A DNA stretch of 64,000 nucleotides, taken from NCBI RefSeq assembly GCF_900130075.1, contig NZ_LT671418.1, forward strand, positions 1,860,001 to 1,924,000, in the 5' to 3' direction. Position numbers and translations under genes: made by a program. Under the pieces are notes generated by a model, which saw only the letters and a program-made list of their open reading frames with translations, had not been told where the DNA came from and ran no database searches. This stretch comes from Herminiimonas arsenitoxidans. Its GTDB lineage: Bacteria > Pseudomonadota > Gammaproteobacteria > Burkholderiales > Burkholderiaceae_D. Each line of letters opens with the position of its first letter. Position 1 is the stretch's first letter. Of the stretch, positions 1,689 through 50,818 are shown one piece after another.

Positions 1689-1705
1689 AGCAGCAACTGC
1701 ATATA

Positions 1706-1742: not shown

Positions 1743-1791
1743 TCTCTCAACGTCCCGTCCGCTTGTCGTAGCGCAAACGCTGTCCAAATAA

Positions 1792-1956
1792 TCAGGGTGT
1801 GTAATACGCCAACGAGCCGAATGTAAGCGCCACCACCATCAGCACGCCAAATCCCAGCAAAATAAGAAGTCGGCCAAATTTTGGCGTACCGTCCGCATCG
1901 GACTGCGGCTCTTCCTGATGTTGCGTCGGATTGTTTTCTGGATCTAACTCTTGCAT
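1792..1956 (-). CDS. Small single-pass membrane protein (54 aa)
   Basis: A 54-residue protein starting at the ATG at 1956, with AAGGAT at good distance upstream. Residues 1-28 are polar and acidic (many Glu, Asp, Gln and Pro). Residues 31-52 form one hydrophobic helix. It begins 11 bases after the stop of the quinone oxidoreductase gene and is almost certainly co-transcribed with it. I do not recognise a family. Small membrane proteins of this layout are often annotated only as hypothetical. The coding call rests on the ribosome binding site, the operon position and the clear membrane helix. Confidence 0.7.
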   Translation of the reverse strand: MQELDPENNPTQHQEEPQSDADGTPKFGRLLILLGFGVLMVVALTFGSLAYYTP

Positions 1957-1966
1957 TGCAAAATCC

Positions 1967-2941
1967 TTAAGGAAGCAAAATTGAGGAGCCGGTGGTTTTC
2001 CGTGCTTCCAGATCACGATGCGCTTGCGCAGCATCCTTCAGTGCATAACGCTGATTAATACCGATTTTGATCTTGCCGCTTTCCACCATCCCAAACAATT
2101 CAGCCGCCATCATTTCCAGATCATCGCGCTTGGCAATATAGTTGAACAGCGAAGGTCGGGTCACAAACAGCGAACCTCGCGACGCCAATTCATTCAGGCT
2201 GAACGGCGGGACCGGCCCGGATGCACCACCGAAACTCACCATCATCCCCAACGGCGACAAACAATCCAGTGAACCGATGAAAGTATCGTTACCGATCGAA
2301 TCATAAACAACAGGTACACCTTTACCGCCTGTGATTTCCTTCACCCGTTCGACAAAGTTTTCCTTGTTGTAATTGATCGTGTGTACGCAGCCATGTGCCT
2401 TCGCCAGCTCAGCCTTCTCATCCGAACCCACGGTACCTATCATCGTCACGCCCAAAGCACGCGCCCACTGACACGCAATCAAACCAACGCCGCCTGCTGC
2501 TGCATGGAACAAAATGGTTTCACCACCCTGTAGACGGAAAGTACGACGGAATAAATATTGCACCGTCAAACCTTGCAACATCATCGCAGCGGCCGTCTCA
2601 AAGCTGATCGCTTCCGGCAATTTGACAAGAATATCTGCAGGTAACACGCGCGCTTCTGCATACGCACCAGGCGGACGTCCGGCATACGCGACGCGATCAC
2701 CCGGCTTGACGTGCGTGACGCCCGCACCAACCGCTTCCACCACGCCCGCACCTTCCATCCCCAATCCCGCTGGCAAAGGCTGCGGATACGACCCCATGCG
2801 GAAATACACGTCGATGTAATTCAAACCACAAGCATGCTGCCGAATCAAAGCTTCGCCGGGACCGGGTGCGGCAACATCGACATCAACGTATTCCATTACT
2901 TCCGGGCCGCCGGTCTTGAAGATCTTGATTGCTTTGGTCAT
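1967..2941 (-). CDS. qor: NADPH:quinone oxidoreductase, zinc-free MDR family
   Basis: A 324-residue medium-chain dehydrogenase/reductase of the quinone reductase class, expected to reduce quinones with NADPH in the cytoplasm. The N-terminal GroES-like domain carries GLNYIDVYFR (about 39-48) and GMEGAGVVEAVG (about 61-72). The nucleotide fold has AAAGGVG at 147-153, the usual Qor motif. The zinc-ligand cysteines of alcohol dehydrogenases are absent, as expected for this branch. It is followed closely by the 54-residue membrane protein. An SDR gene lies upstream in the same direction, 35 bases away. Confidence 0.92.
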   Translation of the reverse strand: MTKAIKIFKTGGPEVMEYVDVDVAAPGPGEALIRQHACGLNYIDVYFRMGSYPQPLPAGLGMEGAGVVEAVGAGVTHVKPGDRVAYAGRPPGAYAEARVLPADILVKLPEAISFETAAAMMLQGLTVQYLFRRTFRLQGGETILFHAAAGGVGLIACQWARALGVTMIGTVGSDEKAELAKAHGCVHTINYNKENFVERVKEITGGKGVPVVYDSIGNDTFIGSLDCLSPLGMMVSFGGASGPVPPFSLNELASRGSLFVTRPSLFNYIAKRDDLEMMAAELFGMVESGKIKIGINQRYALKDAAQAHRDLEARKTTGSSILLP

Positions 2942-2976
2942 GAGTAACTCGCTTAATTTAGTAATAAGTTATTGAA

Positions 2977-3756
2977 TCAAAACGTTCCCGGATAACCACC
3001 ACCATCGAGCAAAATATTTTGCCCGTTGATGTAACCCGCATGTTCGCTGCATAGAAATGCGCAGGTCGCACCAAACTCTTGCCGCGTACCGAAGCGTTTG
3101 GCCGGATTAGCCGAGCGACGTGCCGCACTGACTTCTTCTACTGTACGACCGCTGGCTTCTGCAGCAGCAGAGAAGATAGCCGCCAATCTGTCGGTCTCGA
3201 AAGGACCAGGCAATAAATTATTGATCGTCACATTGCGTGCAACCGTCCTGCGCGCCAGGCCGGCGACAAAACCGGTCAAACCAGAACGTGCGCCATTGGA
3301 CAAACCCAGACTATCTATCGGTGCCTTCACTGCACTCGACGTAATGTTGATGATGCGTCCGAAACCACGCGCCATCATGCCATCCACCGTTGCCTTGATC
3401 AGTTCTATCGGCGTCAGCATGTTTGCGTCGAGCGCCGCGATCCAGTCATCACGACTCCAATCGCGAAAATCACCAGTCGGCGGGCCTGCTGCATTCGTCA
3501 CCAGAATATCCGGTTGCGGACAAACCGCCAGCACCTGCGCGCGTCCTTCGGCAGTCGTGATATCGCAGGCGACGATGGTAATCATGCTGCTGGAAACCGC
3601 ACGGATTTCAGTCGCAGTGGCTTGCAAAACTTCCAGATTACGCGCCACCAGAGTGACATTTACACCTTCTGCCGCCAAAGCCTCAGCACAACCACGCCCC
3701 AAGCCCCGACTCGCACCGCAGACCAATGCGGATTTTCCTCGTATGCCTAAATCCAT
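2977..3756 (-). CDS. Atypical short-chain dehydrogenase/reductase
   Basis: A 259-residue Rossmann-fold protein of the SDR superfamily, close in layout to 3-oxoacyl-ACP reductases. It has the cofactor motif GASRGLG at 14-20, NAAG at 88-91 and NITSS at about 137-141. The catalytic YxxxK signature is not there: the matching position reads LSNGAR (152-157), placing Ser153 and Arg157 where Tyr and Lys are expected. A known SDR subgroup shares this SN-x-x-R pattern, so it is probably a real family trait, not decay. The reaction is unknown. The gene sits 9 bases from the end of the upstream EamA exporter gene. Confidence 0.85.
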   Translation of the reverse strand: MDLGIRGKSALVCGASRGLGRGCAEALAAEGVNVTLVARNLEVLQATATEIRAVSSSMITIVACDITTAEGRAQVLAVCPQPDILVTNAAGPPTGDFRDWSRDDWIAALDANMLTPIELIKATVDGMMARGFGRIINITSSAVKAPIDSLGLSNGARSGLTGFVAGLARRTVARNVTINNLLPGPFETDRLAAIFSAAAEASGRTVEEVSAARRSANPAKRFGTRQEFGATCAFLCSEHAGYINGQNILLDGGGYPGTF

Positions 3757-3765
3757 CGCTGATTC

Positions 3766-4677
3766 CTACGCTCGTTTTTTAGATAAGACATAAATACCGC
3801 ATAACACCAAAGCAGTACCCGCCAGTTGTATGCCGGTAATCGGCTCGTCCAGTATCAGTGCCGCCAAAAACAGAATGGACACCGGACCTATCATGCCGGC
3901 TTGTGACGCCGTTGCTGCACCTATGCGATCGACTGCGATCATCGTCAGGAACACCGGCATCACTGTACAGAAAAATCCATTAATCATGGACAAGCCGTAT
4001 ACCGCCATCGGCTGTATCAAAGTCGAGGCCGGACGCAGGATAAAGAATTGCGCAATGCAAGCCACGCTGGACACGCACATCGCATACGCCACCAGACGCA
4101 ATGCGCCGACACGCTTGACCAGTTCACCCGAACCCAGCAAATAGATAGCGTACGCAATCGCGCTGCCCAAGACCAGCAAACTCCCAAGCACCACATTGGA
4201 ACCGCCAATACGAACGTCGTGCACAAACACCAGCACCGTCCCGAGATAAGAAATACCCAGCGCCGCCCATTCCAGCCCGGTAATTCTTCGCTTCATGACA
4301 AAGATAGAGATCAGCAACACAAAGGATGGCGTCAAAAACAGAATCAGGCGCTCCAGCCCGACCGAGATATATTGCAACGCGAGGAAATCGAGAAAACTGG
4401 AGAGGTAATAACCGAGCAAACCCAATACGGCGATCTTGCCTTTTTCACTGCGCGTCAGCGGCACCGCTGTGCGTCCCTTCCAGATGCCTATGACGATAAA
4501 AAACGGGAGAGAAAATATCATGCGAAAAGCAATCAGTGTCACCGCATCCACGCCGTAGCGGTAAATCAGTTTGGCAACGATTGCTTTGGTCGAAAACAGA
4601 ATCGCGCCCAAGAGCGCGATCATCAGACCGATGAGGAAATGTTTACGTTCGGAAGGAATAGAAGTGAAATCGGCCAT
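3766..4677 (-). CDS. EamA/DMT-family membrane transporter
   Basis: A 303-residue inner-membrane protein with about ten hydrophobic helices arranged as two EamA repeats, the drug/metabolite transporter layout. The first repeat includes a stretch near residues 20-60 with Lys and Arg between helices. The second repeat ends in LAGTALVLCGIYVLSKK at the C-terminus. These carriers usually export metabolites or amino acids; the substrate cannot be read from sequence. The SDR gene follows 9 bases later, so the two are likely co-transcribed. Confidence 0.88.
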   Translation of the reverse strand: MADFTSIPSERKHFLIGLMIALLGAILFSTKAIVAKLIYRYGVDAVTLIAFRMIFSLPFFIVIGIWKGRTAVPLTRSEKGKIAVLGLLGYYLSSFLDFLALQYISVGLERLILFLTPSFVLLISIFVMKRRITGLEWAALGISYLGTVLVFVHDVRIGGSNVVLGSLLVLGSAIAYAIYLLGSGELVKRVGALRLVAYAMCVSSVACIAQFFILRPASTLIQPMAVYGLSMINGFFCTVMPVFLTMIAVDRIGAATASQAGMIGPVSILFLAALILDEPITGIQLAGTALVLCGIYVLSKKRA

Positions 4678-7254: not shown

Positions 7255-8745
7255 TTACTTGCCCTTGAAAATCGAGCCCAGCACGCCACGAATAATCGCC
7301 CGTCCAGCACTCGATCCCATCGTGCGTACCGCAGATTTCACCATGGTCGTCGCAATACTATCGCCACGACCGCTCTTGCTGAACAAACCACCCAAGGCAT
7401 CGGAAAGCATTCCTCCACTTCCCGCTTCAGCTCCTTTGGTCGCTGCAGTTCCTTGTGGCGCATTCTCCGCAACCCGTCCCTTGATCAACTCATAGGCAGA
7501 CTCCCTGTCCACCGACTTTTCATAAACGCCTGCGACCACCGAAGAAGCAATCAATGCCGACCGCTCCGCATCGGTAATCGGTCCAATCTGCGATGCTGGT
7601 GGCAAAACATAACCGCGCTCGACGATAGTTGGACGTCCTTTTTCATCGAGGAAAGAAACCAGTGCTTCGCCCACTCCCAGTTCTGTAATCACTTGCACGA
7701 TATCCAGCGCAGGATTCGGACGGAAGGTTTGTGCCGCCGCTTGCACTGCTTTTTGATCGCGCGGTGTATAGGCGCGCAAGGCGTGCTGCACGCGGTTGCC
7801 GAGCTGACCGAGCACGGTATCGGGAATATCCAATGGATTCTGCGTCACAAAATAAACACCTACGCCTTTAGAGCGTATTAGACGTACTACTTGTTCGATT
7901 TTTTGCAGCAAAGGCTTGGGCGCTTCGCTGAACAGCAAATGCGCTTCGTCAAAAAAGAACACCAGCTTCGGCTTGTCGAGATCACCCACTTCCGGCAAAT
8001 GCTCGAATAACTCGGACAGCATCCACAACAGGAAGGTGGAGTACAGCAAAGGCGCATTCATCAACTTATCTGCAGCAAGAATATTCACCACGCCCTTGCC
8101 TTTAGCATCGGTTTGCAGCAAATCTTCGATATTGAGCATAGGCTCGCCAAAGAATTTATCGCCACCTTGCTCATCAACACCGATCAAGCCACGTTGAATC
8201 GCACCTATGCTGGCGCTGGAGATATTGCCGTATTCAGTCTGGAAACTCGACGCGTTGTCGCCGACGTATTGCAGCATCGCGCGCAAATCCTTGGTATCGA
8301 GCAATAACATGCCTTGATCGTCGGCAATCTTGAACACCAGTTGCAGCACGCCTTGCTGGGTATCGTTCAAATTCAACATACGCGCCAGCAATAACGGACC
8401 AAGATCAGAAATCGTCGCACGCACCGGATGACCTTTTTCGCCATAGACATCCCAGAACGTGACCGGTACACCTGCCCATACCGGCTCCGCCAATTCCAGC
8501 ATCGCAAAGCGTTCCTTGACCTTGCCGACGGAGGCACCAGCCTTGGCGATACCAGACAAGTCGCCTTTGACGTCGGCCATGAAAACCGGCACGCCTATAT
8601 CGGACAAAGCCTGTGCCAAAGTCTGCAAGGTCACGGTTTTACCCGTGCCGGTTGCGCCCGTAATACAACCATGCCGATTGGCAAGCTCAGGCAGCAAACT
8701 TAATTCATGGTCTTTGTTTTTAGCAATCAGCAGAGGATTTGGCAT
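7255..8745 (-). CDS. yjgR: HerA/YjgR-type ATPase (DUF853)
   Basis: A 496-residue P-loop ATPase of the DUF853/YjgR family, distantly related to HerA/FtsK DNA translocases. Its exact job is unknown. Walker A is GATGTGKT at 30-37. The Walker B strand [13 protein letters not shown] lies near residue 270, and a further [13 protein letters not shown] segment resembles the sensor region of HerA. The C-terminus is Gly/Ser/Ala-rich with a small hydrophobic end. The ATG at 8745 is preferred over a TTG eleven codons upstream. Divergent from yebC. Confidence 0.88.
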
Positions 8746-9695: not shown

Positions 9696-10967
9696 ATGAA
9701 AATTCTGGTAGTCGGCTCAGGCGGCCGCGAACACGCTCTGGCTTGGAAACTGGCACAATCCGAACGGATTCAAACCATCTATGTCGCACCTGGTAACGGT
9801 GGCACTGCGCTGGACGACAGACTGAAAAACATTGCGATTACCGATCCGCAAGAATTGGCTCAATTCGCTCAGCAGGAAAATATCGCGCTGACCGTGGTCG
9901 GCCCGGAAACACCGCTGGCCGCTGGCATCGTGAATATCTTCCGTAACCAAGGCTTGAAGATTTTTGGCCCAACCAAGGAAGCTGCGCAACTCGAAAGCTC
10001 CAAGGATTTCGCTAAATCGTTCATGCAACGCCATGCGATCCCGACCGCGGAATACCAAACCTTCTCCGAAGTAAATGCAGCACACGACTACATCAACCTG
10101 AAAGGCGCACCTATCGTCATCAAGGCTGATGGCTTGGCTGCCGGCAAAGGCGTAGTGGTTGCGATGTCGCTGGATGAAGCGCATCACGCAGTCGACATGA
10201 TGCTGTCCGATAACAAGCTCGGCGATGCCGGCGCACGTGTCGTGATTGAAGAATTCCTCGCCGGCGAAGAAGCCAGCTTTATCGTCATGGTCGATGGCAA
10301 AAACATTTTGGCGCTGGCCACCAGCCAGGATCACAAACGCCTGCTCGATCACGACGAAGGTCCGAACACCGGCGGCATGGGCGCGTATTCACCTGCTCCT
10401 ATCGTCACGCCAGCGCTGCATGCACGCGTCATGCGCGAAATCATTCAACCAACCGTGCAAGGCATGGCCAAGGATGGCATTCCATTCTCGGGCTTCCTGT
10501 ATGCAGGTTTGATGATCGACGACAAAGGTAATCCCAAGACTTTGGAATTCAACTGCCGCATGGGCGATCCAGAAACACAACCGATCATGGCGCGTTTGAA
10601 AACCGACTTGGTCGGCGTAATGGAACACGCAGTCAACGGCACCTTGGATACGATAGAACTGGAATGGGATCGTCGTACCGCATTGGGCGTAGTGTTGGCA
10701 GCTGCCGGATATCCTGATGCACCGCGCAAAGGCGACGTCATCACCGGCATTCCTGCAGAAACTGCAGATAGCGTCACCTTCCACGCTGGCACTGCATTGA
10801 ATAACGATCAGCTGACCACCACTGGTGGCCGCGTCTTGTGCGTAGTCGGCCTCGGCGATAGCGTCAAAGTCGCGCAAAAGAAAGCCTACGACACTATCGA
10901 CAGCATCCATTTTGACGGCGCACAATTCCGCCGCGACATCGGCTGGCGCGCACTGAAACGCTCTTAA
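9696..10967 (+). CDS. purD: Phosphoribosylamine-glycine ligase (GAR synthetase)
   Basis: A 423-residue ATP-grasp enzyme that joins glycine to phosphoribosylamine in purine synthesis. The N-terminal MKILVVGSGGREHALAW is diagnostic. GPTKEAAQLESSKDFAK and the glycine-rich KADGLAAGKGVVVA form the ATP-grasp lid, and FNCRMGDPETQ is the metal/ATP site. I chose the ATG at 9696 because family members begin with MKILVVG; an ATG three codons upstream (9687) is also possible. It stands alone between yebC and hemF. Confidence 0.95.
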   Translation: MKILVVGSGGREHALAWKLAQSERIQTIYVAPGNGGTALDDRLKNIAITDPQELAQFAQQENIALTVVGPETPLAAGIVNIFRNQGLKIFGPTKEAAQLESSKDFAKSFMQRHAIPTAEYQTFSEVNAAHDYINLKGAPIVIKADGLAAGKGVVVAMSLDEAHHAVDMMLSDNKLGDAGARVVIEEFLAGEEASFIVMVDGKNILALATSQDHKRLLDHDEGPNTGGMGAYSPAPIVTPALHARVMREIIQPTVQGMAKDGIPFSGFLYAGLMIDDKGNPKTLEFNCRMGDPETQPIMARLKTDLVGVMEHAVNGTLDTIELEWDRRTALGVVLAAAGYPDAPRKGDVITGIPAETADSVTFHAGTALNNDQLTTTGGRVLCVVGLGDSVKVAQKKAYDTIDSIHFDGAQFRRDIGWRALKRS

Positions 10968-33008: not shown

Positions 33009-34673
33009 TCAGCGCCGACGGCGAAAGGTCCAGAATAAAGTGATCAGCCCCGCGACTGCTGCCAGCAATCCCAACCAAGCAAATGCCGGCATGCCCATCC
33101 AGCGCGGACCGTACTGCAATAGCACTGGTCCCAGCGCCAGCAAAACCGCAGCAGTAACAATTGCAATCGCCAAACGTGTCGCCGCTCGCTCCAGCGAAGT
33201 ACCAAGGCGATCCAGATTCGCAATTTTTATATTCGCCATGAAGTGCCCATGCTTCAGGCGCAACATGACCAAGCGCAAAAGTTGTGGCAAATCCAGAGCC
33301 GCCGTTTGTACATCGACCAAAGCAGCTAGTGCTTCTCGCCGTATGGTGCGAGGCGAGTAACGACGCAACAAAGCGCGCTTCACCATCGGACCCGCGATTT
33401 GCACGATATTGAATTGCGGATCCAAGCGTTGCAGCACGCCATCTGCAGTCGCAAACGCCTTGACCAGCAAGGCTAGATCAGGCGGCACCGCCACGCGACT
33501 CTGCTTGGCCATCTCCATGAAATCATTCAAAGCCTGCTTCAATGACAATGGCGCACTGGCAGTACGCGTGACAAATTCTTGCACAGCCTGTTCTGCTCTC
33601 AGCCAATTGAAATCTGTCGGCCCTGACCAATCCATCAGCAGGTTAATCAAGCCATCAGGCCGACCGGATACGATGGAACGGAACAACACCAACAATTGAT
33701 CCCGTCGCAAATCCGACAAGCGCCCCACCATACCGAAATCAATAAAGCCAACCCGATTCTCGGCCAGTACGATCAAATTACCGGGATGCGGATCGGCATG
33801 GAACAAGCCGTCATGCAACACCATTTTCAAAAATGCGCGTGCACCACGCTCAGCTAACAAGGAGCGATCCAATCCTTGCGCACGCAAGCCGCTGTCATCC
33901 GTGGGTGCTATTCCGTCGACATACGATTGCACCAACAAGCGCTCGCTCGACCATGCGGAATAAATATACGGAATCTCGATCTCTGGATGCTGTTCGAAAT
34001 TACGCGCCACCTGCTCACAGGATTGCGCTTCGCGCCTGAAATCTAATTCATCCTGCATCGCCAACGTCAGATGACGCACGATATCGCGCGGCTTGTAATA
34101 CGGTGCCAACTTGCGCTCTTCAACAATATTCGCGAGTTGCGCCAGCAAGCGTAAATCGGCCTCGACCGTGCGACGAAGTCCAGGACGTTGCACCTTCACC
34201 ACCACATCCTGCCCGCCATGCAAGCGTGCGCGATAAACTTGCGCCATCGACGCTGAAGCAAGCGGTTCTGTATCAAAAGATGCAAACACATCTTCAATAG
34301 GCCCGGCCAGATCGGCAACTACCTGTTCGCGCATATCAGACCAAGGCATGCTTGCTACGCGACTATGCAAGCGCTCGAACTCTTCTATCCACTCCGTCGG
34401 CAATAAATCGCCGCGCGTCGCCAGTATCTGCCCGAGTTTAATGAAGGTCGGCCCCAGAGCCTCTATCGCCATGCGCATACGCTGCGGCGCGGATTGTCCT
34501 TCTGCCGCAGTGTCCGGCGGCGTATTGGTAGAACTATGGGATGTTTTATCGTTGAAGAGATCGCCCAAGCCGAGGCGCATGAAGACATCCTGCACACCAA
34601 AACGAGCCAGCACAGAAATAATCTGCCGCAAACGTTCGCGATCCCGTATCGCCGCCAATGTCATGTCTAACAT
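33009..34673 (-). CDS. UbiB/AarF (ABC1) family atypical kinase
   Basis: A 554-residue protein of the ABC1/ADCK/UbiB family, linked to quinone biosynthesis or lipid handling. The family-specific KxGQ motif reads KLGQ at 79-82. The Ala-rich nucleotide loop ASMAQVYRA is at about 142-150, and ADPHPGN and IDFGMVGRL carry the metal/ATP residues. Two C-terminal helices (about 500-550) anchor it in the membrane. UbiB proper usually sits beside ubiE/ubiJ; this stand-alone gene is probably a paralogue, so I give no symbol. Confidence 0.87.
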   Translation of the reverse strand: MLDMTLAAIRDRERLRQIISVLARFGVQDVFMRLGLGDLFNDKTSHSSTNTPPDTAAEGQSAPQRMRMAIEALGPTFIKLGQILATRGDLLPTEWIEEFERLHSRVASMPWSDMREQVVADLAGPIEDVFASFDTEPLASASMAQVYRARLHGGQDVVVKVQRPGLRRTVEADLRLLAQLANIVEERKLAPYYKPRDIVRHLTLAMQDELDFRREAQSCEQVARNFEQHPEIEIPYIYSAWSSERLLVQSYVDGIAPTDDSGLRAQGLDRSLLAERGARAFLKMVLHDGLFHADPHPGNLIVLAENRVGFIDFGMVGRLSDLRRDQLLVLFRSIVSGRPDGLINLLMDWSGPTDFNWLRAEQAVQEFVTRTASAPLSLKQALNDFMEMAKQSRVAVPPDLALLVKAFATADGVLQRLDPQFNIVQIAGPMVKRALLRRYSPRTIRREALAALVDVQTAALDLPQLLRLVMLRLKHGHFMANIKIANLDRLGTSLERAATRLAIAIVTAAVLLALGPVLLQYGPRWMGMPAFAWLGLLAAVAGLITLFWTFRRRR

Positions 34674-34808: not shown

Positions 34809-34810
34809 AA

Positions 34811-34847
34811 AAAAGGGATTACGAATAATCGTAACCCCTTGTTTTTA
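34811..34847 (-). terminator. Decayed terminator copy downstream of cobN
   Basis: Its sequence matches the terminator after tRNA-Ile2 (42636-42670) except for a stem mismatch and a one-base difference in the spacer. On the minus strand the T run remains, so it may still end the cobN operon. Confidence 0.75.
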
Positions 34848-34888
34848 TAGTGGATCTCCCGTGAGTCGAACGCGGCACCAACGGATTA
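34848..34888 (-). pseudogene. tRNA-Ile2 3' fragment (att-like direct repeat)
   Basis: Forty-one bases match the 3' half of the tRNA at 42677-42755, from the anticodon loop to the CCA end, with four mismatches and in the same orientation. The acceptor end is altered (ACTA instead of ACCA, plus two changes in the stem strand). The 5' half is absent, so it cannot be a working tRNA. It begins 7 bases after the cobN stop. Together with the terminator copy it forms a direct repeat of roughly 80 bases. Confidence 0.88.
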
Positions 34889-34895
34889 GGAAATT

Positions 34896-37800
34896 TCAGT
34901 TTAAATTCTTACCTCTGGCTGCAGAATTGCTCTGACGCCAATAGCCGAATCCGATCAAGCCGACAGCCAACATCAGCAGTAATAATGCCCCTATCGTTTT
35001 TTGTTCAGAAGTCATAGAACGGAGCGATTGCATTTCAAACCCTGATACCACCTGTTCTGCTGACTTCGCTTTAGCCGGCTCAACTTTGGAAGGTGCTGCT
35101 TCGGCCTGTACGCTTTTGTGCGGCACAGCGGCCTCCACTGCATTTGCCCCTGCCACTGCTTCTGCACTGCCCGCAGGCATTTGTTTAGCGCCAACATCGG
35201 GAGCCTGCTTCAGTGTGGCGCTACTGCATGAGTCGCTATTACAAGCAACGCCTGCAGTAGCGATGACCTGTGCATTAATGCGCGTCAAATTGTTGCGAAC
35301 CTCAGCTGTAGGTTTCCAGTAGCCACGTTCGATCACGGTTAACATGCGATCCGTGATTGCTTGATACGCCTTTAAATTGCCACTCTCGGTAAAACGGCGA
35401 CGCACATCCAGGCCATGTCGATCTGCGATATACGTATCGTACATACGCTGCCATTTACTTGCGTCTACCGCTTCTGGCACCGTTACTTGCCATGCCCAAA
35501 GATAATCAACCACACGATTAATGAAGCGCGCACCGGAATAACCCTCCTGCAACATGCGGTCTGCCCAGCGCGGATTGAGATAACGCGTCTGTAATTCCTG
35601 CCCCATATATTTCTGCAAGCTGGTGTGATGCGGATTACGCGGGTTGGACAAATCACTCACCATCACCTCAGGTGTCTTGCCATCGACGCTGCGAATTGCC
35701 AGTGCAGTGCCGCCCAGGTATTGGAAGAAATCATCGTTATCGAGCGTCGCGTATAGATTGCTAGACCGACTGTGCAATGCAATTTTGCTACCCGATAAAG
35801 CCTGCTTGAATAAGGTTCTGCGCAACTTCGGGTCCAGTTCCGCTTCGGCCACATCAGCATCGCCGCCCCAGTAACCCTGGCCAAACGGGTGGCTCATACG
35901 ATTGATAAAGACATCGGCGACCTGTTGTTCGTTCTGCCAGACGTTAGCCAACGGAATCAATTTTTCTATATTGGTACCGTATGCACCGGAAGGTAATCCG
36001 AAAATACGGACCGTCGCCAAACGTTCCGCCTCCGTCGCCGACAAACCCTGACGCTGCAAATCAGATGTCATCTTGCGTGTGTGTTCCTGCAAGGGATTAT
36101 CAGTATCGTCCTGCTTCTGTGCCAGCTGCGCAGCGTCATCCAGCAATTTCAATAAGTTACCAAACAAATCCCTGAATAAGCCGGATGAAATCATCGTCAC
36201 GTCAACGCGAGGCCGACCCAATGCGCGACGTGATATCGCTTCCACACCTACCACCCGCCCTCGCTCATCCCAGGTTGGCTTGATGCCGAGTAGCGCCAGC
36301 ACTTGTGCTTCCATGATGCCTTCATGGCGCAAGGTTTCTACACCCCACAAATTGATCGCCAATTTATCCGGATACACACCATGGCGTGTGCGGTAATCTT
36401 CTATCAGTTTTTTTGCCAGCATCGTCCCTTGCTCATAGGTAGTGCGACTAGGGATACGCGCCGGGTCCAGCCCATAGAAATTACGGCCAGTCGGTAATGC
36501 ATCCGGGTTACGCACCAGATCAGCACTCGGCCCGGGAGAGATGTAGTGACCATCCAGCGCGAGCATTAAATTATCCAGCTCCATGTCAGCGCTGCGCACG
36601 ATGTCATCTTCCATTTTTTGTATGCGTGCTGCCCGTTGCTGCGTATCGATACTCTTGTCCAGCCCGATGGCGGCTTTGGCAGTGGCATGACGGAATTCCG
36701 CATCGGGTGCCACACCAAAGGTATGCAAGCCAAACGGCGCGAGCTTATCTGCGGTATCGTCCAGATATTCTTCCAGCGCTTCCAGATCTGCTTCTGTCTT
36801 GAGTGTCTTGCGCTGCATATCTTTTAGCACGCCGCTTTTTAATGCGACCCGATTCAATGCAATCAAATGGTTACGCGCCAGCAGCGGACTCTTTTGATTC
36901 GCCACGCGATAGTCATTCAGCAAAGACAAGAGTTCACGCAGGTCCGGATTAAGTCCGGCCACATCGAATGGTGGCGTCATGTGATCAATAATGGTGGCCA
37001 TACCGCGTCGCTTGGCCTGCAAGCCTTCGCCTACGTCATCCATCACATACGGATAAATATTCGGCACCGCGCCTATCAGCGCTTCCGTCGGATCGGCCGC
37101 GGAAAGACCAGCTTCCTTGCCAGTTAACCACTCGTGGGTACCGTGCGTTCCTATATGCATCACCGCATTCGCGCGATAGCCATGCTGCAACCACAAATAG
37201 AATGCGATGTACTCATGACTCGGCGGCAGCGACACATCGTCATGCAGCTTCTCCAGATTCTGCTCCCACGCGCGCCCCGGTTGCGGTGCCATCAGCAGAT
37301 GGCCATAGCGTCGCGCCGGGAAAACAAATTGATCACGTCCATTTGCATCGCGCCATAAGGTCGATGCTTTTTGCGGAGCGCCCCACGCTTTTTCAATCGA
37401 ACTTTTTAACTCCGCAGGAAACTGTTCGTACCATTTCATGTAATCCGACAAGGGCACTAGCAATGCCTGTCCGCTGGTCGCGAGCTGCGCTAGGCCGGCA
37501 CGATAATCCTTGCTACCTTTACTCGGATAATTGCCCCACTTCTGGATATCGTCTTGCAAGGCTTGCTTGTCGGCAGGCAGATGCGAGCTCGCATCGCTGG
37601 TGCGATAGCCATCCTTGTTCAAACGCTGCACGATTTGCCATAAGCTTTCTGGCAGTACATTCAAATAGGACGCGCCTATTGTTTCCGAACCATGTGGGTA
37701 GTTGTAATACAGCATGGCGATACGCTTGTTCGAATTTGCACTCTTGCGCAAGGCCAGCCAGGCATCGACCCGCTCGGCCAGACGATCTATCCGTTCCGCT

Positions 37801-38834
37801 ATCGGTTGCTCTTCGATGTAAGCCAGTTCGGTTTGCACATCGGTAATCCGTTCACGACTGGCAACCACGGTCGGTTGTATCAGGCCAGCCAGTTCGGCAC
37901 CGGCCAGCTGCCACGAACGCTCGGTGATGTTCAAACCGGTTTTCGACTCTTTCCATTGCTCTGCGGATTGCTGACTCAGAGTGATCGCATTGATTGCCGG
38001 CACCCCGATCTTGTCGAGCATGCCGCTGGTGGCAGCGGTACCGCCTACTTTCATACCCAGTGCGACGATCAATTCAACGCGCGATTTACCAGCGTCATTC
38101 AAAAAGTATTGCAGCGGTACTTCATACGGATAACCGAATACCGGCATGACGTTGTAACCGGATTTTTCCAGACGCGCGACGATCGCAGCCAAAGGCAAGG
38201 TTTGGCCTGCGACCAGACTCGCACGGAAAAACATCACGCCTACCCACGGTGCACCTGGACGATAATGCGTGTACTTTTTTGCGTACTGCTCAAAATCGGA
38301 ATAGGTACGGTCTGCGGCAACGTCATATAAACCGATCTCCGGCATAGGCTGGACCGGCGCTTCTGTCACACTGACGCCTAACTGGGTACGCAATACATAA
38401 CGCAGCATGTTCGTCATATTCTCTATGCCGCCGGCGCGATAGTACTTCTGTACCGTTTTCTCTTCGCGCAATCCCAGCTCGCGCAGTTCATCATCCACAC
38501 CGGAACCCACTGCAATGACGGTACGCTTGTTACGTTGCAAGGTATCGAGTTCGGGCAGAATTCTTTGTACCAGCTGACGTCCAACCACACTAATCACGGC
38601 AACGTCGGCCTTCGCCAGCGCAACCCTGTCTTTTTGACTCATGCTGTTGGCAGCGATGATACGAACCTTGATATCCTGATCTTTCAAGGTCGTTTGCAAA
38701 GAGCGCATGGCCAGTACTGCAGGACGCGACTCGACATCGCCGAGCAGCAATACCAATTCACGCGACACAGCTTGCGCACTAGCCATCAGACCCAAAGCGA
38801 ACAACAAGCACGCACAATATTTATTCCGGAACAT
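34896..38834 (-). CDS. Periplasmic, membrane-anchored CobN/BchH-like chelatase
   Basis: A 1312-residue protein of the cobaltochelatase CobN / magnesium chelatase H family. The start at 38834 has GGAAAGG upstream and gives a clear signal peptide (MFRNKYCACLLFALG... ASAQA). The family signature HIGTHGTHEWLTGK lies at about 560-573, and the tetrapyrrole-binding body extends to about 1200. A Pro/Ala/Lys/Glu-rich linker follows, then one helix (about 1279-1299) and a short basic cytoplasmic tail. Normal CobN is cytosolic and needs the CobST ATPase; this one faces the periplasm, where there is no ATP. It overlaps the DUF2149 gene by 14 bases. The closest precedent I know is HmuS, a haem-demetallating CobN-like protein of Bacteroidetes. 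Substrate here is inferred to be a corrinoid or cobalt, from the B12 riboswitch. Confidence 0.9.
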   Translation of the reverse strand: MFRNKYCACLLFALGLMASAQAVSRELVLLLGDVESRPAVLAMRSLQTTLKDQDIKVRIIAANSMSQKDRVALAKADVAVISVVGRQLVQRILPELDTLQRNKRTVIAVGSGVDDELRELGLREEKTVQKYYRAGGIENMTNMLRYVLRTQLGVSVTEAPVQPMPEIGLYDVAADRTYSDFEQYAKKYTHYRPGAPWVGVMFFRASLVAGQTLPLAAIVARLEKSGYNVMPVFGYPYEVPLQYFLNDAGKSRVELIVALGMKVGGTAATSGMLDKIGVPAINAITLSQQSAEQWKESKTGLNITERSWQLAGAELAGLIQPTVVASRERITDVQTELAYIEEQPIAERIDRLAERVDAWLALRKSANSNKRIAMLYYNYPHGSETIGASYLNVLPESLWQIVQRLNKDGYRTSDASSHLPADKQALQDDIQKWGNYPSKGSKDYRAGLAQLATSGQALLVPLSDYMKWYEQFPAELKSSIEKAWGAPQKASTLWRDANGRDQFVFPARRYGHLLMAPQPGRAWEQNLEKLHDDVSLPPSHEYIAFYLWLQHGYRANAVMHIGTHGTHEWLTGKEAGLSAADPTEALIGAVPNIYPYVMDDVGEGLQAKRRGMATIIDHMTPPFDVAGLNPDLRELLSLLNDYRVANQKSPLLARNHLIALNRVALKSGVLKDMQRKTLKTEADLEALEEYLDDTADKLAPFGLHTFGVAPDAEFRHATAKAAIGLDKSIDTQQRAARIQKMEDDIVRSADMELDNLMLALDGHYISPGPSADLVRNPDALPTGRNFYGLDPARIPSRTTYEQGTMLAKKLIEDYRTRHGVYPDKLAINLWGVETLRHEGIMEAQVLALLGIKPTWDERGRVVGVEAISRRALGRPRVDVTMISSGLFRDLFGNLLKLLDDAAQLAQKQDDTDNPLQEHTRKMTSDLQRQGLSATEAERLATVRIFGLPSGAYGTNIEKLIPLANVWQNEQQVADVFINRMSHPFGQGYWGGDADVAEAELDPKLRRTLFKQALSGSKIALHSRSSNLYATLDNDDFFQYLGGTALAIRSVDGKTPEVMVSDLSNPRNPHHTSLQKYMGQELQTRYLNPRWADRMLQEGYSGARFINRVVDYLWAWQVTVPEAVDASKWQRMYDTYIADRHGLDVRRRFTESGNLKAYQAITDRMLTVIERGYWKPTAEVRNNLTRINAQVIATAGVACNSDSCSSATLKQAPDVGAKQMPAGSAEAVAGANAVEAAVPHKSVQAEAAPSKVEPAKAKSAEQVVSGFEMQSLRSMTSEQKTIGALLLLMLAVGLIGFGYWRQSNSAARGKNLN

Positions 38835-39159
38835 ACACAACCTTTCCATCTGGCAGCTGGTAAGCAGTGCCCAGGCGTTTGCCTTCGCCGGACAAGGGTT
38901 TATCGCTAACACGGCTGACTTTGATCTCAGCACCTTTTTTAGTCATGACTTCTACTTTTCCGTCAGCAGTTTTCTTGGCTATCGTGACCTCTGAGTTCGG
39001 GTCCAGCAGATCAAGCATGTTCCATGCAGAAAACAGCGCCAGCATCATCGCAACGATAAAGACGATGCTCGCATCAAACAAATTGGCGACGCCGGCGAGA
39101 GGATCATCCGTTCCTTCACTCAAATGCCGGCTATACCGATGTCGATTTAAATAGCGCAT
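38821..39159 (-). CDS. DUF2149 protein, possible ExbD-like partner
   Basis: A 112-residue DUF2149 protein with one membrane helix (about 30-50), a short N-terminal cytoplasmic part and a periplasmic domain of about 60 residues ending in LPDGKVVYVPE. The start at 39159 has GGAGG upstream and lies one base after the ExbB-like stop; a longer frame to 39249 would overlap that gene heavily. Asp29 sits at the entry of the helix in NLFDASIVF, the same place as the proton-carrying Asp of ExbD/TolR (PFIDVMLVL-type). I infer it pairs with the proton channel. DUF2149 is repeatedly found with CobN-like proteins. Confidence 0.82.
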   Translation of the reverse strand: MRYLNRHRYSRHLSEGTDDPLAGVANLFDASIVFIVAMMLALFSAWNMLDLLDPNSEVTIAKKTADGKVEVMTKKGAEIKVSRVSDKPLSGEGKRLGTAYQLPDGKVVYVPE

Positions 39160-39160
39160 C

Positions 39161-39760
39161 TCAGCCCTCCACAACAGCCGTGAGTTTTTGCGACTCGCTA
39201 TGCCGTGCCAGCAAGGTTTCGGCAGCATAGGCGATCTCGGTCGAATCACTGCGCAACCAATGCTCCCGCACCAACGCTATGCCATACGCGACCACACTGC
39301 ACGCCAGACCAACCACAGTCGCGGTAAAAGCTGTCGTCATACTTGCCGCCATATTCGGCAGATCGCCTTGTGCCAAACCGGCCAGTGCGATCCCCATCGG
39401 AATCAGGGTACCCATCAAGCCCAGCGCAGGCCCGACACGCACGACAAAGCGCACCGCATCAAGTCGGCGCATGCCGATTGCATCGGCACGCTGCACGATG
39501 CGCTCCAGACGCGCATCCAGCACTGACGGCATATCTGTTGCAGCGATGGCAGCGGCCATTTCTGCTTCTGCAAAAACCAGCAGACTGCGTACGCCGCGCC
39601 TGCGCTCAAACCATTCGCGTGTAAACCCGCCCAAGTACATCAGAAGGTAAAGAACCAATACAGCTATCGCTGCCAACACCGGTAAATGTAATAAGGTCGA
39701 GATCGAATACAAGAATGTCTCGACCAGTTGCACCGCTGTATTGATGTCTAAAGTTGGCAT
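39161..39760 (-). CDS. MotA/TolQ/ExbB-family proton channel
   Basis: A 199-residue inner-membrane protein of the MotA/TolQ/ExbB family. Helix 1 lies near 25-45, a cytoplasmic domain near 50-100, and helices 2 and 3 near 108-130 and 140-165. RVGPALGLMGTLIPMGIAL and MTTAFTATVVGLACSVVAYGI are the conserved helix-2 and helix-3 signatures (GLxGT, Thr-lined pore). It should use the proton gradient to drive a partner. Neither a standard ExbD nor TonB is beside it; the DUF2149 protein follows by one base. Confidence 0.9.
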   Translation of the reverse strand: MPTLDINTAVQLVETFLYSISTLLHLPVLAAIAVLVLYLLMYLGGFTREWFERRRGVRSLLVFAEAEMAAAIAATDMPSVLDARLERIVQRADAIGMRRLDAVRFVVRVGPALGLMGTLIPMGIALAGLAQGDLPNMAASMTTAFTATVVGLACSVVAYGIALVREHWLRSDSTEIAYAAETLLARHSESQKLTAVVEG

Positions 39761-39796
39761 GACGATTTCCCTGAGTGTCAGTACAAAATAATGAAG

Positions 39797-39837
39797 GCCG
39801 ATATCTGTGCGTGAAAAAATCTCACACAGATATCGGC
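39797..39837 (-). repeat. Strong intra-operon hairpin between receptor and ExbB-like gene
   Basis: A perfect 13-base stem (GCCGATATCTGTG / CACAGATATCGGC) with a 15-base loop fills most of the 119-base gap between the TonB receptor and the proton channel gene. There is no T run, so it probably stabilises or processes the receptor message rather than ending it. Confidence 0.7.
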
Positions 39838-39879
39838 ACGATGAGCGATGGAATGACTAACGCTCAACAGTGATGCATT

Positions 39880-42075
39880 TTAAAAAGAGGAACGTACTAT
39901 TAACTGCGCAGTACGCGGCTCACCCAATAGCCAACGTGTATTACCCGATCCAGACAAGGCATAGTCGCGATTGGCGATGTTTTTCACCGCGAAGGTGATG
40001 CTCAGATTGCGCGAGTAGTTGTACAGCAGCGAGGTATCCATCACTGTGTATGCGGGCAAGCTCAAAGTATTTGCCGTATTGGCTTGCCGCTCACCGACAT
40101 AACGTGCACCGAAACCGGCCTGCCATTTCGGCAAAAAGCGATACGCAGTCCAGATATTGGCCATGCGTTCCGGCACGCCGGTCGGCGTATTGCCAGTGCG
40201 TGAAACCGTGGTGCCACCCACATCTTCTGAGAAATTGTCATAGCGTGCACGCAGCAAGGCAGCATTCGCATCTATCGTCCAGCCACGTACAGGCTCAGCA
40301 GCGAATGCAAATTCAAGACCGGTTGAAGATTGCTGTCCGATCTGTAGTGTCACTACCGAATTGTTTGGATCACGTGTCAGCAAATTGCGTTTCTCTATCC
40401 TGTACATGGCCACCGTCCATTCACCGCGTATCGCAGCGAGACTCCCTTTGGCACCGACTTCCAACTGGCGTCCTTTAGTGAGGTCAAATGTCGTGCCACC
40501 ACTAGGCAGTGACAATTGACCACTGAGTGGATCAGTACCTGTACCGTATTGGCCGTATAGTGAAATTGCATTCGATGGCGACCAGATTGCACCGAGACGA
40601 CCGGTCAGCGGCGAATATTTCTTTTGCAGACTCGTACTTGTACGCAAATCCGTACTATCCAGCGTCATATGCTCGCTGCGCAAACCGGCCACCAGCTTCC
40701 AGTTGGTGGCAATATCCAACACGTTTTCGGCGAAGAGCGCTTTGGTCTCCAACTCGGAATAGCGCCCGGGAACGGTAGGCGTAGAACTAACGAACACGCC
40801 ATTATCAAAATTAAACGGATTAGGAATATTGGCGGGATTTGTTGAAGTACCGTTATTCGTGTGCAGCAGAGTTGTACGGTACCAATCGAAACCAGCAACA
40901 AAGCGGTTTTTGAGGTCTGCGATATGACCGTCTACTGTCACATCAAAACGATTACCGGTCTGTTCCTGATCGTGCAGGATTTCCAGATAGCTGCTACGGG
41001 TAAGGCTGCCATTCGGGTTGATGGCATACGACTCGGTATTTTTCCAGTGGCGCTTGCTGGTCAGATAATAGGTTTCATTGCGCAATGAAATGTTATCTGC
41101 GAGTTGGTAATCAACTTTGGCGCGCCATACTTTATCGTTGTAATTGACGACGGCATCATTGACATTGAAACTGGTGCGACGCAGGCGGTCATCGAGCCGG
41201 CCATTAATCAGCGGCGTACCATAATATGTCGCGTCATCGTTGTGACCGGCATCCAGCAAGAAAGTAACCTTCAAATCCTTGTTAGGTCGCACAGTGACAG
41301 CGGCCGAGATATTTTGTCGGTCATACGCCATGTCGCGACGATAGCCGTCGCTTTTATCTGTATCGATGTAGAGCGAGTAAGCCACGACATCGTTGATCGG
41401 TCCGCGCAGCCCGACACCAAGCTGGTATGAACCATAAGAACCAACACCTACCATAGCCTCCCGCTCGGTGCGGTCAAAGACAGGTTTCTTGGTGACATAG
41501 TTGACTGCAGCACCGATGGCGCCATCGCCGTACAGCACCGATGCCGGACCACGCAGGACGTCGACCGATTCCAGCGGCCAGGTAGAGAATGGATAAGTCA
41601 CTGTGCCTGATGCCACCACCAAACGCGTGCCATCCACCAGTTGTGCAACCGAGTTATGCCCGGAAAAACCGCGTGCTGACAAACTAGTGCCGCCATTACC
41701 TGGCGATGGCGATTGCGTCACACCCGGCATGCGTATCGCTACATCTTGCGCACGCGTCAGATTGCGTTCGCTGATGGCAGCGGCATCCAGACTACTGACG
41801 CTGGCCGGAATATCACGCGGAGCCAGTCCCAGGCGCGACGCCGTAGCATTGGGCACATCCAGTTTCAAAGTGCTGTCACTAACGCTATTAACAGTCACTG
41901 CTGGCAGTTCAACATCAGTTTGTGCAAATGCCGGCAGGCTGCCCATGCACACACCCAAAGTGGTGATACGTACGTAAGCAGAAATAGAGTAATGCGTGGA
42001 AAGGGAGTGATGCAGCGCGACTGTGTTGTTACGCGCGCGCTTCGCCATTGCTGCAAGGCGATAGGGAGATTGCAT
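39880..42075 (-). CDS. TonB-dependent outer-membrane receptor under B12 riboswitch
   Basis: A 731-residue outer-membrane receptor. A long signal region ends near GSLPAFAQ. A TonB-box-like DVELPAVTV opens the mature protein. The plug domain has IPASVSSLDAAAI, QDVAIRMPGVT, ARGFSGHNSVAQLVDGTR and VDVLRGPASVLYGDGAIGAAVNYV. The rest is a 22-strand barrel ending in a terminal Phe (LIVRSSF). In style it is close to siderophore-type receptors, but the cobalamin riboswitch in its leader points to a corrinoid or cobalt complex. First gene of the operon; the leader is about 410 bases. Confidence 0.92.
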   Translation of the reverse strand: MQSPYRLAAMAKRARNNTVALHHSLSTHYSISAYVRITTLGVCMGSLPAFAQTDVELPAVTVNSVSDSTLKLDVPNATASRLGLAPRDIPASVSSLDAAAISERNLTRAQDVAIRMPGVTQSPSPGNGGTSLSARGFSGHNSVAQLVDGTRLVVASGTVTYPFSTWPLESVDVLRGPASVLYGDGAIGAAVNYVTKKPVFDRTEREAMVGVGSYGSYQLGVGLRGPINDVVAYSLYIDTDKSDGYRRDMAYDRQNISAAVTVRPNKDLKVTFLLDAGHNDDATYYGTPLINGRLDDRLRRTSFNVNDAVVNYNDKVWRAKVDYQLADNISLRNETYYLTSKRHWKNTESYAINPNGSLTRSSYLEILHDQEQTGNRFDVTVDGHIADLKNRFVAGFDWYRTTLLHTNNGTSTNPANIPNPFNFDNGVFVSSTPTVPGRYSELETKALFAENVLDIATNWKLVAGLRSEHMTLDSTDLRTSTSLQKKYSPLTGRLGAIWSPSNAISLYGQYGTGTDPLSGQLSLPSGGTTFDLTKGRQLEVGAKGSLAAIRGEWTVAMYRIEKRNLLTRDPNNSVVTLQIGQQSSTGLEFAFAAEPVRGWTIDANAALLRARYDNFSEDVGGTTVSRTGNTPTGVPERMANIWTAYRFLPKWQAGFGARYVGERQANTANTLSLPAYTVMDTSLLYNYSRNLSITFAVKNIANRDYALSGSGNTRWLLGEPRTAQLIVRSSF

Positions 42076-42213
42076 GATAGTTGGAATCCGTCAAAAGGCT
42101 CTCGGCTTGCTTCCCCGCAAGTCGAAATCTAAAGAAGTATTCGAAGAATAGAAACGAAAAATGCGCAGTACGTCATGACGCTGTTAAGCGCGTATCAACG
42201 ACAAAACATGTTC

Positions 42214-42232
42214 GCGAACCCATCCCGTTCGC
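42214..42232 (-). promoter_or_regulatory. Expression-platform hairpin of the cobalamin riboswitch
   Basis: GCGAAC pairs with GTTCGC around GGGATGG, just 3' of the riboswitch aptamer. It is a candidate switching or attenuating hairpin. Confidence 0.5.
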
Positions 42233-42239
42233 ACACTTC

Positions 42240-42482
42240 CACCTGATTTGGCCGGTATCCGGGCTAACAAGCATGACCACTTCACCTTCCCATGCCAAAC
42301 TCAGCACAGTGGTATTGAAGCGGTCTGCAAAAAGACATGATGCCTATCATGTTTTTTGCGCTTGCTTACCGTTGCGGGGGCAGCACACATTGCATCACTC
42401 GCCTTTGCAATTGCAAACGACGATCAGAACGATATTGTGTTTCCCGTTTAACTGCGGACAAGAACTTATCCGCTGGCACCAA
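42240..42482 (-). promoter_or_regulatory. Cobalamin riboswitch
   Basis: On the minus strand the leader shows the conserved AdoCbl aptamer blocks in order: GGTGCC near 42480, AACGGGAA near 42445, CTGCCCCCGCAACGGTAAGC near 42381-42364, CCACTG near 42310, TGGGAAGG near 42288, and the B12 box AGCCCGGATACCGGC at 42265-42251. The match to the RF00174 consensus is clear. It should switch the receptor-ExbB-DUF2149-CobN operon off when cobalamin is plentiful. Confidence 0.95.
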
Positions 42483-42491
42483 AACCCGCGA

Positions 42492-42520
42492 ATTGTATGT
42501 TGCTATTGGTGATGTAGCAA
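42492..42520 (-). promoter_or_regulatory. Sigma-70 promoter of the B12-regulated operon
   Basis: TTGCTA (-35) and TACAAT (-10) are separated by exactly 17 bases on the minus strand. The predicted start near 42485 lies directly before the riboswitch aptamer. Confidence 0.8.
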
Positions 42521-42635: not shown

Positions 42636-42670
42636 AAAAAAAGGGGTTACGAATAATCGTAACCCCTTCT
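42636..42670 (-). terminator. Terminator after tRNA-Ile2
   Basis: A perfect 12-base stem (AAGGGGTTACGA and its complement) with an ATAA loop and a T-rich tail on the minus strand lies 8 bases past the tRNA 3' end. It is duplicated in decayed form at 34811-34847. Confidence 0.92.
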
Positions 42671-42676
42671 TATTTG

Positions 42677-42755
<79 letters not shown>

Positions 42756-50041: not shown

Positions 50042-50818
50042 CTATGCTGTCAGATGTGCAAGAACAGTCTCACGCAAGGTCTTGGCGGCTGGCTGTGTAG
50101 CACAACGCACGACATCGCCAATGACAATAATGGCAGGACTGCCTATGGATGATTTTGCCAAAGCGTCTGGCAACTCAGACAAAGTCGTAATCAGTTGCGC
50201 TTGCGCTGTACCGGTTGCAGACTGGATCACTGCGACTGGCGTATCGCCTGCTTTACCGCCATCCAGTAATGACGCCTGAATTTCCCTGCAACGCGCCACG
50301 CCCATATAGATCACCAGAGTCAAATTCAACTTGGCCAGCGTGGCCCAATCGGGATTCGATTCTGCGTTCTTACCGTGACCGGTAATGAAAATCGCACCCT
50401 GACTCCAATCCCTGTGTGTGAGCGGCACGCCGATGGAAGCCGGTGCCGCCAAGCCACTGCTGATGCCGTTGATCACTTCGACCGCAATGCCTGCTGCTTG
50501 CAAGTGATCACGTTCTTCACCACCACGACCAAAGATAAAGGGATCGCCGCCCTTCAGACGCACCACACATAGACCGGCTTGCGCTTCGGACAACATCAAA
50601 CGTTCTATGAATTCCTGCGGCGTTTGTGCGCAACCGCCGCGCTTACCTACCTGAATGACGCGCACTGTTGCAGGCGCATGTTCCAGCACCGCCGGATTGA
50701 CCAGATCATCAATCAGAATGACATCGGCGCATGCAATTGCCTTGACGGCCTTGATGGTCAGCAACTCTGGATCGCCGGGGCCCGCACCTACCAAAAAAAC
50801 CTTACCGAACGACTCCAT
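50042..50818 (-). CDS. cobA: Uroporphyrinogen-III C-methyltransferase
   Basis: A 258-residue SAM-dependent enzyme that methylates uroporphyrinogen III at C2 and C7 to precorrin-2, the precursor of sirohaem. VGAGPGDPELLT (about 10-21) and RLKGGDPFIFGRGGEE are the two signatures. It lacks the CysG dehydrogenase/ferrochelatase part. Position at the end of the nitrate operon shows its job: sirohaem for NirB. The ATG at 50818 has AAGG upstream and overlaps ybiB by 17 bases. Confidence 0.93.
   Translation of the reverse strand: MESFGKVFLVGAGPGDPELLTIKAVKAIACADVILIDDLVNPAVLEHAPATVRVIQVGKRGGCAQTPQEFIERLMLSEAQAGLCVVRLKGGDPFIFGRGGEERDHLQAAGIAVEVINGISSGLAAPASIGVPLTHRDWSQGAIFITGHGKNAESNPDWATLAKLNLTLVIYMGVARCREIQASLLDGGKAGDTPVAVIQSATGTAQAQLITTLSELPDALAKSSIGSPAIIVIGDVVRCATQPAAKTLRETVLAHLTA

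Follow-up and report, generated by a model that had tools for sequence, protein, structure and literature searches.

The literature is cited here from excerpts of open-licence papers. Among CobN-related proteins, BtuS was set apart as a third type, predicted to be exported and to serve metalloporphyrin salvage and not cobalamin synthesis (Rodionov 2003, cited in PMC6460266), and it has been reported in M. barkeri (PMC10846266). HmuS is distinguished by Met79, His254, an LSLDHxxEFMGG motif with His1209 and a methionine-rich insertion (PMC12583661), and in P. gingivalis other Hmu components may affect its activity (PMC13227078). Its partners HmuU and HmuV were called ExbB/ExbD-like energisers of the receptor in 2023, with HmuV described as apparently diagnostic of haem transport and without a role for other ligands (PMC10100974). 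For the cobN of T. lovleyi plasmid pSZ77, CobST is absent, and its authors called the cluster cobalamin-related, with its role unknown (PMC3403914). The excerpts contained no account coupling a MotA-DUF2149 pair to a chelatase. The window analysed here (64,000 nucleotides, positions 1,860,001 to 1,924,000 of the 3.78-Mb single-contig genome of Herminiimonas arsenitoxidans) holds a minus-strand unit at 42498-34896 comprising, in that order, a cobalamin riboswitch and genes for a TonB-dependent receptor, a MotA/ExbB protein, a DUF2149 protein and a CobN homologue. We propose, with a probability of roughly 0.55, that this is a BtuS-type corrinoid-handling operon in which the chelatase would be powered by a proton-driven stator in place of the CobST ATPase.

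BtuS and its constant partners

The four-gene riboswitch unit described by a sequence-only reading of the window was confirmed, each protein by Pfam, as was the tight spacing of the last three genes: one base separates the MotA and DUF2149 genes, and the DUF2149 and CobN-like genes overlap by 14 bases (Table 1). The CobN homologue (hereafter BtuS) is the sole PF02514 match in the host genome and scores below every listed NCBIfam CobN/BchH equivalog cut-off (e.g., TIGR02257: 627.9 versus 822.05). By hydropathy and sequence, its N terminus is a typical signal sequence and its C terminus a hydrophobic helix with basic residues after it, so the body of the protein should face the periplasm, in support of the exported chelatase predicted earlier. 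Among solved structures it matched HmuS at 425.4 bits and CobN at 421.6 bits. The catalytic His of the superfamily is retained (HIGTHG), and the second active-site motif, LDNDDFFQYLGG, resembles that of Sinorhizobium CobN, LDSDDYYQFEGG, and is unlike that of HmuS, LSLDHVYEFMGG. At the places of the axial haem ligands Met79 and His254 of HmuS, Val84 and Met261 are aligned; the LSLDHxxEFMGG motif with His1209 is absent, an Asp standing at the His place, and sequence comparison found no methionine-rich insertion. Membership of the haem de-chelatases (HmuS) was ruled out by these absences. The window operon, with four genes and neither HmuY nor HmuT, is also not a complete hmuYRSTUV operon. An ordinary synthesis-pathway CobN was ruled out by the sub-cut-off scores and by a host without CobT and CbiC.

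It could still be that BtuS removes the metal from a metallo-tetrapyrrole (a cobalt porphyrin, a degraded corrinoid or haem) as HmuS does, with regulation alone shifted to B12. The partner genes are the same as in hmu operons, BtuS falls on the same exported side of the tree (below), HmuS narrowly leads its solved-structure matches, and the catalytic His is kept. We nevertheless consider metal removal unlikely, given the missing HmuS features and the 24 of 35 B12-linked genomes without CbiC (below), which hence have no known use for freed cobalt.

A tree was built from 59 of 76 BtuS/CobN/BchH hits (12 near relatives or duplicates were dropped by hand; 5 were too short or weak). DUF2149-linked proteins separated from four anchors (three annotated CobN and one magnesium chelatase H) with support 99, and the window protein grouped with the exported, DUF2149-linked forms, as the sequence-only reading had anticipated. 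DUF2149-linked proteins with readable ends have a hydrophobic stretch at both; all four anchors are without the C-terminal one, and the Deinococcus anchor is somewhat hydrophobic N-terminally. The exported side comprises four groups, HmuS being one. The group of the window protein has 13 rows (support 100, T. lovleyi included), 14 members of a 16-row group are B12-linked, and a 24-row group mostly has receptors and is without cob genes. At least six changes of B12 linkage on the tree indicate that the linkage was gained or lost repeatedly; here, L117 is labelled “no B12” (its riboswitch was found later, by sequence pattern only), as is the short contig L082. An HmuS-like DH motif occurs in the proteobacterial BtuS-type proteins L037, L038, L107, L109, L114, L115, L119 and L139, which are possible haem or iron forms. 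The second-motif position therefore varies with lineage and may report on the metal or the ring.

The survey of partner genes looked for DUF2149 in 369 genomes of the class, of which 21 had a match, and in 399 of the order, of which 30 did; the host is counted in both. Besides our own, 51 places were fetched, and 47 survey loci were left after removal of L051, L127, L128 and L130, whose below-cut-off DUF2149 matches were ruled out because they sit at ExbD genes. A MotA-type gene accompanies DUF2149 in all 47, and a BtuS-type gene shares the stretch in 46 (some stretches are cut by contig ends). The remaining locus, L120 (G424:C1:97500-115500), is a MotA-DUF2149 pair with no BtuS within 18 kb. 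The Asn and Asp at the helix start of DUF2149 were invariant in 71 of 71 proteins, and MotA-like partners kept the Thr of the GTxxP stretch (GTLIP in the window) in 71 of 71, a residue which we take to resemble Thr148 of ExbB. In a profile-profile comparison of DUF2149 with ExbD, the Asp residues of the two aligned, with a probability of 62.5% (P 7e-5) against 0.9% (P 0.06) for the reversed control. The structures that AlphaFold predicted for DUF2149 and BtuS (mean predicted local distance difference test score [pLDDT] 54.5 each) were too poor for a fold search. We infer that MotA-DUF2149 may be an ExbB/ExbD-like proton-driven stator; the support for the proton drive proposed earlier is anatomical, in the form of the invariant DUF2149 Asp and the MotA-type partner.

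The receptor is the less constant component. The window receptor fails the B12-receptor (BtuB) model TIGR01779 (95.6 versus a cut-off of 599.7), and its best solved-structure match is 9rvq. It is 65.6% identical to the receptor of a distant BtuS locus, L121, and gives only partial matches (E 0.001 or worse) to receptors of the most closely related BtuS loci (L081 and those of Duganella and Rugamonas). In L121 the window-like receptor gene (1664-3832) lies within a long B12-riboswitch salvage operon that also holds the distant BtuS. When named genomes were scanned with the window BtuS, 19 loci (65-74% identical) turned up in two Burkholderiales metagenome-assembled genomes, Duganella, Rugamonas and Noviherbaspirillum. 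By profile search, a receptor gene overlaps the end of BtuS in 13 of them (L084-L091, L093, L094, L096, L098, L099) and precedes MotA in L081; in L092 just the tail of an upstream BtuB-like gene is present, and the contig of L082 is short. The same search found no receptor in L083, L095 and L097, where the riboswitch runs straight into MotA-DUF2149-BtuS. That Duganella-type operons lack a receptor was considered and rejected, since 14 of the 19 named loci have one. Receptors are thus exchanged between close relatives, and the MotA-DUF2149-BtuS trio is constant.

These patterns bear on whether the pair instead powers the TonB-dependent receptor, with BtuS merely binding or moving the corrinoid and leaving its metal unchanged. 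Such a division of labour matches the published reading of HmuU and HmuV (PMC10100974), and receptor genes are frequent. They occur in 34 of 47 survey stretches, in the 14 named loci and in the window operon, so a receptor could be what the stator energises. We find this doubtful, because receptors swap while the trio stays, because three loci join the riboswitch directly to the trio, and because a separate, classic ExbB-ExbD pair coexists with MotA-DUF2149 in L131, L039 and L101. In addition, Methanosarcina acetivorans, an archaeon without an outer membrane, matches PF09919, PF01618 and PF02514 and not ExbD (family presence; gene adjacency was not seen). Taken together, the four lines of evidence point to the chelatase as what the putative stator serves.

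Corrinoid salvage in the host and its relatives

The CobT chelatase subunit (PF06213) is absent from the whole host genome (the search did not extend to CobS or other AAA+ chelatase subunits), as is CbiC (PF02570), which both known corrin-ring routes require. Of the four TP_methylases of the host, two are uroporphyrinogen-III methyltransferases and two resemble rRNA methylases, one of the latter scoring under the cut-off. A salvage cluster (L006) lies ∼0.5 Mb from the operon, and its receptor genes are headed by the other two of the three RF00174 aptamers in the genome. Threonine-phosphate decarboxylase, CbiB, CobB, CobO, CobS and CobT (phosphoribosyltransferase) scored above NCBIfam cut-offs in this cluster; BtuF-, BtuC- and BtuB-like proteins and a second receptor scored below them, and CobU-, BtuD- and CobC-like genes were named from sequence. 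With no CbiC, no CobT chelatase subunit, only these TP_methylases and a salvage cluster, the host is a corrinoid salvager and does not appear to synthesize the corrin ring. The earlier statement that the window is free of CobS, CobT, BtuFCD and cobalamin synthesis genes was right for CobT, and requires amendment at 50171-50803, which encodes a uroporphyrinogen-III C-methyltransferase (TIGR01469: 265.2, cut-off 185), a step common to sirohaem and B12. The sequence-only reading had overlooked the salvage cluster, the existing name BtuS for the family and the tRNA-derived repeat described below.

Among relatives, cmscan of 6 named loci placed the aptamer ahead of the trio in 5. In a whole-genome search that left aside L082 and L093, it headed the trio operon in 17 of 17 named genomes (places matched to contig ranges), which are close kin and not independent cases; in G774 it lies just beyond the fetched locus, ahead of a salvage operon containing the trio. 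Of 48 survey loci, that of the window among them, at least 18 have a riboswitch at the head of the operon (17 by place-matching in the genome search and 1 by sequence pattern); the search over 63 genomes used stricter filters, and counts refer to the matches listed. Gene content and riboswitch support the claim of the sequence-only reading that the operon is a B12-controlled relative of the Hmu set, and the B12-linked loci are evidence against HmuV being specific to haem transport. In L041, a thiamine pyrophosphate (TPP) riboswitch (7547-7677) stands by the receptor adjoining a BtuS-MotA-DUF2149 set, in a group otherwise mostly B12-linked, possibly indicating another ligand.

Corrinoid uptake or salvage genes (some of cobO, cobB, cobQ, cbiB, btuB, btuC, btuD and btuF) lie near BtuS in L042, L043, L045-L050, L081, L092, L117, L121, L123-L126 and L129, and a corrinoid substrate is favoured by these neighbours. 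We classified 35 BtuS genomes as B12-linked among the matches listed (the order draw gave 10, the class draw 8 and the named genomes 17). CbiC was found in 11 and was absent from 24 (order background: 33 of 399), from which it follows that the system is independent of ring synthesis and cannot in general serve to supply cobalt for newly made corrin rings; imported corrinoids are favoured over simple cobalt supply. The latter would have the receptor import a cobalt chelate and BtuS strip its cobalt for de novo B12 synthesis. B12 control is compatible with this, the T. lovleyi operon adjoins genes for a cobalt energy-coupling factor (ECF) transporter, and 11 of the 35 genomes do have CbiC; with most B12-linked genomes lacking it, and a host without CbiC, CobT or any TP_methylase beyond those named above, we judge cobalt acquisition very improbable. 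Duganella sp. 1411 carries a canonical CobN (TIGR02257, 1254.9 bits) and an AAA/VWA protein alongside the BtuS operon, and Rugamonas rivuli a cluster of CbiX, CbiG and cobalt transporter genes, so BtuS need not be the biosynthetic chelatase in this lineage.

Three CbiC-positive genomes of the same class as the host, from two families (G121, G236 and G089), place the trio in a riboswitch operon ordered BtuS-MotA-DUF2149, then CobO-CobB-CobA-CbiD-ABC ATPase-ABC permease-CobG-CbiC-CobI-CobJ-CbiET-TP_methylase (genes identified mostly by family search in G121, partly so in G236 and by similarity in G089). CobG is a mark of the late cobalt-insertion route, in which a cobaltochelatase is needed between CobB and CobO. 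In all three, an ABC exporter pair lies between CobG and CbiD. A BluB-type nitroreductase stands between DUF2149 and CobO in G121 and G236 and elsewhere in the cluster in G089, where a BtuB-like receptor gene precedes BtuS within the operon. Most of the corrin pathway is present in G121 and G236, where CobQ, CbiB and loop-assembly genes lie nearby; precorrin-6A reductase was not identified, and the later genes of G089 fall outside the stretches read. Those stretches held no other CobN (a whole-genome PF02514 search was not made) and no CobW hit. CobT is absent from the G121 and G236 genomes (other AAA+ chelatase subunits were not searched), and G089 has one CobT match (52.9 bits) on another contig. 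BtuC/BtuD-type genes lie near the operon in G121 and G236 and were not seen for G089. Gene order in these three genomes of two families suggests proton-driven cobalt insertion outside the cytoplasm. In its full form, MotA-DUF2149-BtuS would be a proton-driven extracytoplasmic cobaltochelatase standing where CobNST is expected, and would put cobalt into scavenged corrinoids in hosts that make no ring; this we advance tentatively, as a possibility with the odds clearly against it. The proposal would entail export of the corrin, cobalt insertion in the periplasm and re-import by a BtuFCD-type importer, and the exporter in the operon, the BtuC/BtuD-type genes nearby in G121 and G236 and the lack of a CobW hit in those stretches would fit periplasmic insertion.

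For the corrinoid-handling operon with a stator-powered chelatase, the steps would be as follows. Judging from the riboswitch class, B12 shortage would permit expression, and the receptor would carry a corrinoid, or a related metal complex, into the periplasm. BtuS, as a CobN-type (class I) chelatase on the periplasmic side of the inner membrane, would act on the metal of the ring, with cobalt insertion or exchange as the most likely reaction, powered by proton flow through the ExbB/ExbD-like stator of the MotA-like protein and DUF2149. The re-metallated corrinoid would then be imported by a BtuFCD-like importer and completed by salvage enzymes encoded elsewhere.

Several observations weigh against this proposal, besides the frequency of receptor genes. 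No B12 link was found in 30 of 48 survey loci among the matches listed. DUF2149 gave no Pfam ExbD/TolR match (PF02472) even at E 10, and its profile match to ExbD spans 33 columns only. HmuS and CobN are nearly tied as solved-structure matches, so the reaction cannot be read off the sequence. DUF2149 carriers are somewhat more commonly corrin producers (6 of 27 versus 27 of 372; Fisher p 0.017, uncorrected for kinship and assuming that both draws are the same 399 genomes), a canonical CobN coexists with BtuS in G765, and cobalt-free or wrongly metallated corrinoids are not established as a food source.

Layout, promoter and flanking repeats

The consensus promoter claimed for the unit proved weak. 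The candidate has 9 of 12 consensus matches (1 such site found, where shuffled sequence would give 0.6), and its -10 hexamer shares bases with the 5' edge of the aptamer; this consensus-like site may therefore not be the promoter of the operon. The operon lies between direct repeats of the 3' end of tRNA-Met (CAT) with its terminator, the downstream copy directly after BtuS. Insertion at a tRNA gene usually leaves direct repeats of this kind. Between the repeats lie the four operon genes, which take up all the space and include no integrase, and base composition of the operon is not distinctive; the unusual receptor would be in keeping with lateral acquisition. Adjoining the operon, window positions 33009-34673 encode a UbiB/ABC1-kinase-like protein below the UbiB equivalog cut-off (394.9 versus 487.55).

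Table 1. Features of the riboswitch operon and its flanks (window coordinates)
Feature	Position	Strand	Support
tRNA-Met (CAT) 3' part and terminator, upstream repeat copy	42637..42720	-	
Cobalamin riboswitch aptamer (RF00174)	42233..42498	-	68.5 bits (gathering cut-off 31.5), E 8.4e-15, full-length match (model positions 1-189)
Possible expression-platform hairpin, weak T-run	42213..42233	-	Terminator-like site, consensus only
TonB-dependent receptor, siderophore-receptor type, 731 amino acids	39880..42075	-	TIGR01783, 284.6 bits (cut-off 223.5)
MotA/TolQ/ExbB-type channel subunit, 199 amino acids	39161..39760	-	PF01618, 40.4 bits (versus 22.9)
DUF2149 protein, 112 amino acids, putative ExbD-like single-helix subunit with invariant Asp	38821..39159	-	105.7 bits
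BtuS-type CobN homologue, 1312 amino acids, predicted signal peptide and C-terminal anchor	34896..38834, ATG at 38834	-	PF02514, 984 bits
Degenerate tRNA 3' end and terminator, downstream repeat copy	34809..34891	-	82% and 92% identity, two repeat blocks

Comparison with described systems

Class I chelatases are known to run on AAA+ ATPases. If the proposal is true, a periplasmic proton motor of the ExbBD type would power the metal chemistry of tetrapyrroles in a new way, could account for CobN-like proteins without CobST and would give the uncharacterised DUF2149 family a partner. The BtuS family and B12-riboswitch hmu-like operons were already known. What is new is MotA-DUF2149 as the constant partner of the predicted chelatase amid swapped receptors, the invariant ExbD-like Asp in DUF2149, and the trio at the expected place of the cobaltochelatase in a largely complete CobG-type pathway in three other genomes.

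Like the BtuS family as excerpted (Rodionov 2003), the window protein is a CobN-related type predicted to be exported, and it falls outside the CobN and BchH anchors; the excerpts gave biochemical proof for no B12-controlled member of the family. With the Bacteroidota hmuYRSTUV operon as described in PMC12583661 and PMC10100974, the window shares a receptor, a CobN-like protein that is exported and membrane-anchored (by prediction in the window), a MotA/ExbB protein and DUF2149; it differs in the HmuY, HmuT and HmuS features listed above and in having a B12 riboswitch. For the hypothetical protein adjoining CobN in a Prevotella hmu operon, no Pfam family scored above the cut-off. The hmu-like operon of B. 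fragilis NCTC 9343 also has a cobalamin riboswitch, and its authors suggested cobalamin metabolism (PMC10100974); by its description, to which our comparison is confined, it has two receptors and belongs to Bacteroidota. The pSZ77 cluster of T. lovleyi (L131) is the best plasmid match (46.6% identical) and has MotA-DUF2149-CobN, with an additional DUF2162 gene and ExbB-ExbD-TonB set; the DUF2162 protein (10161-10862), within the operon, is a predicted transporter. P. aeruginosa PA1922-PA1925, likewise compared by description, resembles the window in its receptor, CobN-like protein, proton-channel protein (annotated ExbD) and DUF2149, and differs in belonging to the Zur regulon and serving zinc (PMC9431628). 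Finally, the window protein shares the CobN fold and active-site Asp pair with the CobNST cobaltochelatase; CobNST is cytosolic and driven by ATP through CobST, whereas the window protein is predicted to be exported and scores below the CobN equivalog cut-offs.

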